Source: Sedimenticola thiotaurini
Lineage (GTDB): Bacteria; Pseudomonadota; Gammaproteobacteria; Chromatiales; Chromatiaceae
Direction of reading: 5' to 3'
Length of the DNA: 64,000 nucleotides
Assembly: GCA_007713595.1 (NCBI GenBank)
Contig: VMRY01000041.1
Coordinates: 62,001 to 126,000, forward strand
The notes under the pieces were generated by a model. That model had not been told where the DNA came from, ran no database searches, and saw only the letters and a list, made by a program, of their open reading frames with translations. Below, piece by piece: positions 48,989 through 56,533 of this stretch. Each line of letters begins with the position of its first letter. Position 1 is the stretch's first letter. The position numbers and the translations under genes are program-made.

Positions 48989-49044
48989 GGGTAACTCCTG
49001 AGGGACTTTCCGTAACCCCGATTGCCGTTATCTTGATCTTATTT

Positions 49045-49087
49045 AAGATTACGGTTCCATAGGCGGCGCTGCATTGAAATATATCAA
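49045..49087 (-). promoter_or_regulatory. FNR-dependent promoter upstream of 48575-48988
   Basis: TTGAA-ATAT-ATCAA (49074-49087) matches 9 of 10 positions of the FNR site TTGAT-N4-ATCAA. A -10-like TAATCT lies on the minus strand at 49045-49050, placing the site about 41 bases upstream of a start near 49039, the class II activator position. A weaker half-site (TTGAT, 49033-49037) overlaps the predicted start. Confidence 0.62.
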
Positions 49088-49104
49088 TTCAAAGGGGGCG
49101 TTAC

Positions 49105-49809
49105 TCAATTATCGGCAATAAATTCAAGATTGCGGATATCCAGCAGGTATTTGTTAGGCTCGGTCTCAACCAGCAGGCTCTGGCGTTTGAATTCAGCAAT
49201 GGTACGACTGGTGGTTTCAGTGGTGATACCGAGCATGGCCCCCATATCTTCCCTTGGGAAAAGCTCGCATTCGCTTGTCTCCTGGTTACGCACCAGTCGT
49301 AATAACAGGCGGGCTACCCGCTGTTTGGCTGAACCAGTAGAGAGTTCCGTCAACCAGGCATCTGCCTCTTCCAGTGCCCGCTGCCAGCGTTTGAGCAGTT
49401 CATGGTGGAGTTTTGGGTTGGTTTGCGAGAGCGCCTGTACAACGCTGACCGGCAGGCTGCAAGCCTGAGTTGGTTGCAGTACCACCGCATCATGTTGGTA
49501 GGGTTGCCCTAGAAGGGCTTCCAGTCCGGTTACATCAGTTGATCGAATCAGTCGCACAATCCGCTGTGTTCCGTCGGGAAGGTATTGTATCAGCTTCAAT
49601 ACGCCGCTACGGATGGTGTAAAGACGATCTGCCTTGTCTCCTGCGCGATAAAGGGTTGAGCCGGCAGGGAGGGTGTAGAGGTCGATGGGTTGGTGGATTT
49701 TGTCAAAGTCACCCTCATCCAGACCGGAAAAAAGGACTGAATTACGCAGCGTACAGCTGATGCAGTCGGCAACGCCTTCCCAGGCCTCTTTATCACTTAG
49801 GGATTTCAT
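49105..49809 (-). CDS. Crp/Fnr-family transcriptional regulator
   Basis: 234 residues from ATG 49809; a TTG at 49845 lies inside the trpB2 hairpin and is not used. A cyclic-nucleotide-like beta-barrel (about 20-140) is followed by a C-terminal winged helix (about 155-225). The recognition helix reads TTETTSRTI, holding the E..SR residues with which FNR reads TTGAT. The N-terminal Cys motif is C16-x2-C19 only; the third N-terminal Cys of E. coli FNR is replaced by Val. C117 matches the distal cluster Cys. Sensing of O2 or NO is therefore uncertain. Confidence 0.88.
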   Translation of the reverse strand: MKSLSDKEAWEGVADCISCTLRNSVLFSGLDEGDFDKIHQPIDLYTLPAGSTLYRAGDKADRLYTIRSGVLKLIQYLPDGTQRIVRLIRSTDVTGLEALLGQPYQHDAVVLQPTQACSLPVSVVQALSQTNPKLHHELLKRWQRALEEADAWLTELSTGSAKQRVARLLLRLVRNQETSECELFPREDMGAMLGITTETTSRTIAEFKRQSLLVETEPNKYLLDIRNLEFIADN

Positions 49810-53611: not shown

Positions 53612-56533
53612 ATGTCGCCAATGCAAGATCCAACCACCCAATCTGATAATGATCTGGGGCGCGTCGAGGTCAAGACGACCACCTGCTACATGTGTGCCTG
53701 CCGTTGCGGTATCCGGGTAACCTTGCGGGATGGTGAGATACGCCATATAGAAGGCAACCCCAAGCATCCGCACAATCAGGGTGTGATTTGCGCGAAGGGT
53801 TCCTCGGGTATCATGAAACAGTATTCACCTGCCCGAATTACCAAGCCTCTGTTGCGTAAGCAGGGTGGAGAGCGGGGCACTTCCAGTTTTGAAGAGATCT
53901 CCTGGGAGCAAGCGTTCGATATCATTACCGAACGGTTGTCCCGGATTCGGGCTGAAGACCCGAAGAAATTTGCCCTGTTTACCGGGCGGGATCAGATGCA
54001 GGCCTTGACCGGTCTGTTCGCCAAGCAGTTTGGTACGCCAAACTATGCCGCCCATGGTGGTTTCTGCTCAGTGAATATGGCGGCCGGTATGATCTATACC
54101 ATCGGTGGCTCTTTCTGGGAGTTCGGTGGACCGGATCTGGAGCGGGCCAAACTGTTTGTGATGATAGGTACGGCGGAGGACCATGACTCCAACCCGCTGA
54201 AGATCCATATCTCCAAGTTCAAACGCCGGGGTGGCCGCTTTATCTCCATTAACCCGATTCGTTCAGGTTATTCAGCTATTGCGGATGAGTGGGTACCGAT
54301 TAAACCGGGAACGGACGGTGCGCTGATTCTGGCAATCAACCACGAACTGATCAAGCAGGGTTTGTTTGATCGGGAGTTTTTGACTCAATATTCCAATGCG
54401 GCTGAACTGGTGGTGGATGATCCCCGCCGGGATGATCATGGCCTGTTCAAGCGCTTTGAGATGCATGTGGAAGAGGGGTGTTTCGATCCCGAGAACAAGT
54501 TGTGGTGGGATCGGGATCTGGATAAAGAGATCTCTACCCACACCCCGGGTACTGAGCCTCGCCTGTTAGGCGAGTTCCGTCTGGAAGATGGCACGCACGT
54601 CAAACCCGCCTTTCAACTGTTGAAAGATCGTCTGGAGGAGTACACACCGGAGTGGGCCGAAGGGATTACCGGCATCCCCGCTGAAACTATCCGCCGCTTG
54701 GCCCATGAGATGGGTGTGACGGCCCGGGATCAGAAGATTGAACTACCGATCCAGTGGACCGATAGCTGGGAGAATGAGCACGAATCAATCACCGGAAACC
54801 CGGTGGCATTTCATGCCATGCGTGGCATTGCAGCCCACTCCAACGGTTTTCAGTCCATTCGTGCCCTGAGTATATTGATGACCCTGCTCGGAACCATCGA
54901 TCGTCCCGGTGGCTTCCGTCATAAAGCGCCCTTCCCGCGTCCCATTCCGCCCTGCCCCAAGCCTCCCAATAGCCCGGATGGGGTGAAGCCCAATACACCG
55001 CTAGATGGTATGCCACTCGGCTGGCCTTCCAAGCCGGAAGACCTGTTTGTCGATGAAGAAGGAGAAGCAGTGCGCCTGGACAAGGCATTCTCCTGGGAGT
55101 ACCCGCTGTCAGTGCATGGTCTGATGCATAACGCCATCACCAACGCCTGGCGCGGTGATCCCTATCCGATCGACACCATGCTGCTGTTCATGGCCAACAT
55201 GGCCTGGAACTCCTCTATGAACACGGAGCAGATCCGCCACATGCTGACAGACAAGGATAGTGAAGGTGAATACAAGATTCCTTTCCTGATTGTCTGCGAT
55301 GCCTTTCAGTCCGAGACGGTCGCCTTTGCTGATCTGGTGTTACCCGATACCACTTATCTTGAACGTTATGATGCGCTGTCGATGCTGGATCGGCCGATCT
55401 CGGAGTTTGAAGGACCGGTGGATTCAGTGCGTATCCCAGTGGTGCCGCCGACCGGTCAGTGCAAACCGTTCCAGGAGGTGTTGGTGGAGTTGGGCAGTCG
55501 CCTGAAACTGCCGGCATTTGTCACGGCAGCCGGTGATCGAAAGTATCGCGACTATCCTGATTTTATTACCAATTATGAGACCTCGCCTGGCTCCGGGATT
55601 GGCTTTCTGGCTGGTTGGCGCGGCAAGGGAGGGGAGAAGTTCCTCAAAGGTGAACCCAATCCGCGGCAGTGGGAGATGTATCAGAAAAATGACTGCTACT
55701 ACCACTACAAATTGCCCAAGTCTTACCAGTACATGCGTAACTGGAACAAAGGGTATCTGCACTGGGCGCGAAATCACGGCATGATTCGCTATGCGGAGCC
55801 GATCACCATTCATCTCTATTCCGAGGTGTTGCAGAAATTCCGCCTGGCAGCACAGGGCAAAGGCAAAGGGCGTAAGCCACCAGAGCGGCTGCGCAAGCGT
55901 GTTGAGATGCACTTTGATCCACTGCCATTTTACAGCGAACCGCTGTTATCACGGTTGGTGGATACCCATGAGTACCCGCTCAATGCCCTGACTCAGCGTC
56001 CGATGGCGATGTATCACTCCTGGGATTCACAAAACGTCTGGCTGCGGCAGATCCATACGCACAACTACCTGTTTGTGAATCCAATCGTAGCGCATGCTAA
56101 AGGGATTGATGATGGTGACTGGATCTGGGTGGAGTCTCCCACTGGCAAGGTGCGCTGCATGTGCCGATATTCCGAGGCCGTGGAGCCGGGCACTGTCTGG
56201 ACCTGGAACGCAATTGGCAAGGCAGCGGGGGCCTGGGGGCTTTCTCCCAAGGCGAATGAATCACAAAAAGGTTTCCTGCTGAACCACTTGATTCCGGAAG
56301 AGTTGCCTCCCTGTGAATCAGGCGACCATCTCTCGAATTCTGATCCGGTTACTGGGCAGGCGGCCTGGTTTGATGTACGGGTGAAGATTTATAAGGCGGC
56401 ACCTGAAGAGCCGGCTCAAACTCTACCCCAGTTCATTGCACAGAAACCGTTGCCAGGCCAGAAGAGCTACCGTGGACGCTGGCGCTCATTCTTTGCCGGT
56501 AAGCTCGGTAAATCAAAGGGGAGCAAGATATGA
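53612..56533 (+). CDS. soeA: Sulfite dehydrogenase (quinone), molybdopterin subunit
   Basis: A 973-residue protein. C25-x2-C28-x3-C32-x27-C60 binds an N-terminal [4Fe-4S] cluster; the likely Mo ligand is C152 in GGFCSVNMA. No twin-arginine signal, so the enzyme faces the cytoplasm, as in SoeABC of purple sulfur bacteria. It oxidises sulfite to sulfate and passes electrons through SoeB and SoeC to quinone. The length and the operon order with a ferredoxin-type subunit and a DmsC-like anchor support this over polysulfide reductase. It overlaps soeB by 4 bases (ATGA). Confidence 0.9.
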   Translation: MSPMQDPTTQSDNDLGRVEVKTTTCYMCACRCGIRVTLRDGEIRHIEGNPKHPHNQGVICAKGSSGIMKQYSPARITKPLLRKQGGERGTSSFEEISWEQAFDIITERLSRIRAEDPKKFALFTGRDQMQALTGLFAKQFGTPNYAAHGGFCSVNMAAGMIYTIGGSFWEFGGPDLERAKLFVMIGTAEDHDSNPLKIHISKFKRRGGRFISINPIRSGYSAIADEWVPIKPGTDGALILAINHELIKQGLFDREFLTQYSNAAELVVDDPRRDDHGLFKRFEMHVEEGCFDPENKLWWDRDLDKEISTHTPGTEPRLLGEFRLEDGTHVKPAFQLLKDRLEEYTPEWAEGITGIPAETIRRLAHEMGVTARDQKIELPIQWTDSWENEHESITGNPVAFHAMRGIAAHSNGFQSIRALSILMTLLGTIDRPGGFRHKAPFPRPIPPCPKPPNSPDGVKPNTPLDGMPLGWPSKPEDLFVDEEGEAVRLDKAFSWEYPLSVHGLMHNAITNAWRGDPYPIDTMLLFMANMAWNSSMNTEQIRHMLTDKDSEGEYKIPFLIVCDAFQSETVAFADLVLPDTTYLERYDALSMLDRPISEFEGPVDSVRIPVVPPTGQCKPFQEVLVELGSRLKLPAFVTAAGDRKYRDYPDFITNYETSPGSGIGFLAGWRGKGGEKFLKGEPNPRQWEMYQKNDCYYHYKLPKSYQYMRNWNKGYLHWARNHGMIRYAEPITIHLYSEVLQKFRLAAQGKGKGRKPPERLRKRVEMHFDPLPFYSEPLLSRLVDTHEYPLNALTQRPMAMYHSWDSQNVWLRQIHTHNYLFVNPIVAHAKGIDDGDWIWVESPTGKVRCMCRYSEAVEPGTVWTWNAIGKAAGAWGLSPKANESQKGFLLNHLIPEELPPCESGDHLSNSDPVTGQAAWFDVRVKIYKAAPEEPAQTLPQFIAQKPLPGQKSYRGRWRSFFAGKLGKSKGSKI

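Follow-up and report, generated by a model that had tools for sequence, protein, structure and literature searches.

Results

Organization of the locus

The locus lies on the minus strand of a 64,000-nt stretch of Sedimenticola thiotaurini DNA (contig VMRY01000041.1, positions 62,001 to 126,000), referred to here as the window. In the direction of transcription, a TrpB-like PLP enzyme gene (51218-49869) is directly followed by the gene of a CRP/FNR-family regulator (49809-49105), a gap of 116 nt, a gene for a 137-aa protein (48988-48575), and a patatin-like phospholipase gene (48517-47159). The TrpB-like gene occupies the same position directly upstream of the regulator in Sedimenticola and in many relatives. 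A program-made listing begins the regulator ORF earlier, at TTG 49845; counted from the conserved ATG at 49809 to the stop at 49105, the protein has 234 aa. The ATG of the 137-aa gene is preceded by a ribosome-binding-like AGGAG, read directly at 48995-48999, and the patatin-like gene, which starts 57 nt further on in the same direction, is possibly co-transcribed with it. A gene for a SoeA-like molybdopterin oxidoreductase is located near the locus on the plus strand (53612-56533; see also L073).

The operator and its conservation

The gap between the regulator and the 137-aa gene contains the operator ATTGATATATTTCAATGC (minus strand, 49071-49088), whose 14-mer core at 49074-49087 reads TTGAAATATATCAA on the plus and TTGATATATTTCAA on the minus strand. 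In FNR class II promoters the site is centered at -41.5 (PMC3688515). A sequence-only reading had described the 14-mer as FNR-like, with 9 of 10 FNR positions, and as lying at the class II distance from a -10-like element. The coordinates and the match were correct on re-reading, and so was the distance, since TAATCT (minus strand, 49046-49051) begins 29.5 nt from the operator center (49080.5), as for a site at -41.5. The transcription start is predicted from the sequence to lie near 49039-49040. TAATCT is a weak -10, with 3 of 6 consensus positions and the TA...T positions present, and a sigma-70 promoter scan of the gap found no ordinary promoter.

Taken as sequence, a single match of this kind is unremarkable, and its significance comes from conservation. 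The window contains five 9/10 matches to the FNR site where 3.0 are expected, a number reached in 23 of 100 shuffles, and the match at one site is uninformative because the FNR pattern with one mismatch allowed occurs 332 times in the Sedimenticola genome. The form derived below from the aligned sites, ATTGM-N4-TTTCAATGC, matches exactly once in the source genome, at this operator, so that the circuit here looks local.

To follow the site among relatives, we analyzed the gaps between the regulator and its downstream gene. The pattern TTG(A/C)-N5-(A/T)TCAATG was present in 25 of 25 gaps whose remaining sequence has diverged, whereas shuffled or resampled gaps gave a mean of 0.009 over all 25 and a maximum of 1. 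A scan of named genomes, some of which overlap with the set of 55 relatives used below, covered 80 loci, with hosts that are mostly purple sulfur bacteria, Sedimenticola, Thiothrix, Halothiobacillus, Sulfurovum, and animal symbionts. The strict site was found in 46 of the 51 named regulator-adjacent loci and close variants in the other five, one of them the palindromic form TTGCGATTTCGCAATGC in L160; the Lamprocystis sites are degenerate. Absence of the site upstream of orthologues, which the sequence-only reading had named as counting against it, is thus not what these genomes display, and the site is in all likelihood real, conserved, and functional, as judged from the comparison.

The position of the -10 element relative to the site was determined in 59 sites that are <80% identical over 80 nt. 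In 54 of them the distance from the site center to TAnnnT is exactly 29.5 or 30.5 nt, while any other offset is represented by 0 to 3 sites; the binomial probability of this spacing treats the sites as independent, ignores shared ancestry, and is an indication only. The spacer between site and -10 holds almost no information. The -10 is mostly TAANCT, a weak form, and the sites share no conserved -35, which fits a promoter that depends on an activator. With a center ~41.5 nt from the predicted start and ~29.5 nt from the -10, the arrangement is that of a class II CRP/FNR-dependent promoter, and both the conserved site and the spacing support the proposal that the 137-aa gene has such a promoter, next to its probable regulator.

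The assignment to FNR itself fared differently. The aligned consensus is ATTG(A/C)-N4-TTTCAATGC, in which the left half may be TTGCG and the right half with its ATGC flank is nearly invariant; FNR sites do not require this flank. Because TTG, TCAATG, and A or T at +3 were required by the pattern used in the search, free information is confined to the flanking C, positions +1 to +3, and the -10. Position -3 is occupied by G (28), C (17), T (13), or A (1), and position +3 by T (53) or A (6), where the FNR site needs A. The T at -3 and A at +3 of the FNR site TTGATNNNNATCAA are therefore not kept among the orthologous sites, although the window site itself matches at 9/10, and a plain FNR site was rejected. 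Together with the flank and a regulator without the C29 ligand (see below), the predominance of T at +3 (53/59) and the lack of a fixed base at -3 leave the claimed FNR site, and the oxygen control that it implied, unsupported.

ATCAA is retained at other class II sites of the genus, such as TTGATAGTTATCAATG ahead of a different gene, so that two or more types of site seem to exist side by side. This second conserved site, TTGATAGTTATCAATG-N21-TAGATT, lies on the same contig outside the window (G000:C139:179186-179228; L229, L231) and precedes an ORF of ~100 aa followed by a permease-like gene; it occurs in seven Sedimenticola genomes, with the variants TTGACGGTTATCAATG and TTGATGGTTATCAATG, and is probably a canonical FNR target. 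In addition, TTGAGCTGGATCAATG with a correctly spaced -10 was found ahead of a conserved gene for a ~140-aa membrane protein (L237, L235; G000:C91:5103, also in G005, G006, and G008), and TTGCGAGTTATCAATG, spaced from a TACTAT as in class II promoters, ahead of a peroxiredoxin-like gene (L236; G004:C1:2425741-2425782), a possible extra regulon member.

The adjoining regulator

The regulator belongs to the CRP/FNR superfamily, as indicated by the profiles of a cNMP-binding-like sensor domain (PF00027, 64 bits, cut-off 27.5) and a Crp-type HTH (PF13545, 48.7 bits, cut-off 27). Its recognition helix is TTETTSRTIAEFKR, and the E..SR recognition residues ascribed to it earlier are indeed retained, with E198, S201, and R202 present in 67 of 67 homologues. 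The same 67 sequences have invariant cysteines at positions 16, 19, 117, and 181. C16, C19, and C117 align to FNR C20, C23, and C122, while the position of C29 holds V, A, or M in all 67, so the four-cysteine set of FNR (C20, C23, C29, C122) is incomplete. The score for the NCBI FNR subfamily NF008365 is 71.3 bits against a cut-off of 228, and none of the NCBIfam equivalog cut-offs was reached (FixK 61 of 300 bits, FnrL 63 of 300, FNR 71 of 228). Of the earlier description as an FNR-type regulator, family and recognition residues thus stand, but FNR proper does not.

A canonical four-cysteine FNR (L193) is also encoded in the source genome, as are two further FNR-like proteins (L192, L198), with ETVSR/ESLSR helices of the same recognition type as that of the regulator. 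With C29 missing, a score far below the FNR cut-off, and a separate true FNR in the genome, oxygen control through the standard FNR cluster is not supported; the regulator may hold an iron-sulfur cluster with another ligand.

Regulator and site were also compared across genomes. The gene for the 137-aa protein, identified below as DUF6858, is present in 27 of 55 relatives. A regulator orthologue was found in all 27, as against 4 of the 28 relatives without DUF6858, and it lies directly upstream (61-95% identity) in nearly all DUF6858-bearing relatives. Among the distant DUF6858 carriers tested, no site was detected in those without a regulator homologue (E<=1e-20), namely Halothiobacillus, Campylobacterota, Chlorobiaceae, and Neptunomonas. 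Thiothrix has the site and the -10 ahead of DUF6858, yet its regulators are only 33% identical.

The DUF6858 protein and its gene neighborhood

The 137-residue protein had been taken as unrecognized. It is in fact a member of Pfam PF21651 (DUF6858), a catalogued family with no described function, which it matches with 191.7 bits (cut-off 27) over nearly the full length of the profile (positions 1-128 of 129). C77, R91, P92, and R93 are invariant. A predicted model (pLDDT 91.6) gave three structure matches that clearly outscored all others: 1q9u (Z 12.5, rmsd 2.4 over 109 residues), 7tj1 (Z 12.4), and 1j3m (Z 10.9 over 105). Of these entries, 1q9u carries DUF302 in its title and 7tj1 is named after another protein; we take 7tj1 and 1j3m to have the same fold as 1q9u. 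The predicted fold is accordingly DUF302-like, resembling 1q9u and 1j3m over 105-109 residues at 6-10% sequence identity, and such a shared fold tells no function. At the level of sequence profiles, PF21651 alone was reported up to E = 1, which gives no membership in DUF302, and no sequence relatives of DUF6858 were found in the PDB. Within the literature library covered, no paper on DUF6858 or on the adjoining regulator was found.

The gene order behind the site varies among relatives. Many Chromatiaceae have the regulator followed by the site, DUF6858, a NifX-like gene, and cydA, and elsewhere a SLAC1/TDT channel gene comes first behind the site. A second copy of the module is present elsewhere in the genome in G002, G004, G011, and G017, with the site ahead of TDT, DUF6858, and NifX-like genes; in G004, soe-like genes lie just upstream of this second cluster, which continues into cydA. 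The site precedes a NifX-like gene alone in G014, and cydA in G016, where the regulator is present and DUF6858 is absent. A direct site before cydA as a general rule was rejected, as it was found in G016 only and was absent before stand-alone cydA genes elsewhere. The cydA genes start some hundred bases behind the NifX-like gene and may have their own promoters.

These neighbors, namely the SLAC1-type anion channel, the NifX-like and soeA-like genes, and in one genome a persulfide-dioxygenase-like gene, point to a putative role of DUF6858 in redox or sulfur chemistry. In G321 (L077:3787-4871), DUF6858 is directly followed by a metallo-beta-lactamase-fold gene resembling ETHE1 persulfide dioxygenase, with no regulator module nearby. 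An exclusive link between DUF6858 and dsrA was rejected: 11 relatives that lack DUF6858 have dsrA as well, so that only a general sulfur-oxidizer setting is supported. Several Sedimenticola keep a diverged DUF6858 paralogue without the site (L064 in G000:C48, L066, L067, L068), whose neighbors are a P-type ATPase gene, a NUDIX-like gene, and formate-dehydrogenase-like genes.

Discussion

The sequence comparisons establish that the site is conserved and has a fixed geometry, that it is linked to both regulator and target, and that the recognition residues are kept. We consider it likely that regulator and ATTGATATATTTCAATGC form a local circuit for class II activation of the DUF6858 gene. The regulator would bind ATTGATATATTTCAATGC as a dimer centered ~41.5 nt upstream of the start. 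At this promoter, whose -10 is weak and which lacks a -35, it would contact RNA polymerase as a class II activator and thereby induce DUF6858, perhaps together with the downstream patatin gene. The corresponding pair of regulator and site in relatives would drive SLAC1/TDT-DUF6858-NifX-like operons, often with cytochrome bd oxidase genes behind. That the adjoining regulator binds the operator, rather than canonical FNR, is suggested by the joint occurrence of site and regulator gene in the genomes compared (27/27 versus 4/28, and no site in the tested carriers without the regulator); the signal is presumably redox- or sulfur-related and would act through the four invariant cysteines.

The main competitor is a scheme in which the canonical oxygen-sensing FNR, or another FNR-like protein with the CxxCx5C motif, targets the site and the adjoining regulator is a mere neighbor or competitor. 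The canonical FNR and the two FNR-like proteins of this genome could all bind TTGA-N6-TCAA, the window site has 9 of 10 FNR positions, and Thiothrix carries the site without a close regulator orthologue. We nevertheless regard this scheme as unlikely, as the consensus departs from FNR sites at +3 (T in 53/59) and at -3 and has the nearly invariant ATGC flank, the site tracks the regulator gene and in most genomes lies directly behind it, and the sites of the genus that do keep ATCAA (TTGATAGTTATCAATG) speak for a separate type. Still less probable is a scheme in which the regulator acts through the site as a repressor of the DUF6858 promoter, or adjusts the read-through that comes from its own operon: the two genes are co-directional and close enough for read-through, but a distance of 29.5 or 30.5 nt to a weak -10 without a -35, kept in 54/59 sites, is the geometry of an activator. 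A chance match without any regulatory role, for which the five 9/10 matches in the window against 3.0 expected might be cited, has next to no probability, given that dozens of diverged gaps keep both the site and its distance to the -10, and is refuted as far as comparative data can do so.

The proposed circuit of regulator and operator is ordinary in principle, a CRP/FNR activator beside its target, and new in detail, with an undescribed regulator branch, operator, and target family. The regulator resembles E. coli FNR (PMC3688515) in its superfamily, its E..SR helix, and an operator with TTGA/TCAA half-sites, a 6-nt spacer, and a center at -41.5, and differs from it by the missing C29 ligand, the extra invariant C181, and an operator consensus with TTTCAATGC and no T/A at -3/+3. 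Unlike the global E. coli FNR, it appears to serve a local circuit with one exact site in the source genome. The cysteine set of the regulator differs from that of FNR/ANR. The TTGA-N6-TCAA core is common to the ANR/CydR, FixK, and DNR/NNR branches of the superfamily, of which CydR/ANR control cytochrome bd genes, and cytochrome bd genes are also found near the DUF6858 module in Chromatiaceae.

More speculatively, the regulator could represent a distinct CRP/FNR subfamily of sulfur-oxidizing bacteria in which C16, C19, C117, and C181 serve as sensors for a sulfur or redox cue (persulfide, sulfite, NO, or an iron-sulfur cluster with other ligands), with an extended GCATTGA/C-N6-TCAATGC operator and a compact regulon of DUF6858, SLAC1/TDT, NifX-like, and in places cytochrome bd genes; we hold this wider scheme to be possible but doubtful. 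The local circuit itself provides a handle on the function of DUF6858, which occurs mainly in sulfur bacteria. Expression of this family appears to be coupled to a dedicated activator, and also to an anion channel, to a NifX-like protein and, in some genomes, to a cytochrome bd oxidase. The circuit also defines a branch of the CRP/FNR superfamily whose cysteine set is altered and whose operator is extended.
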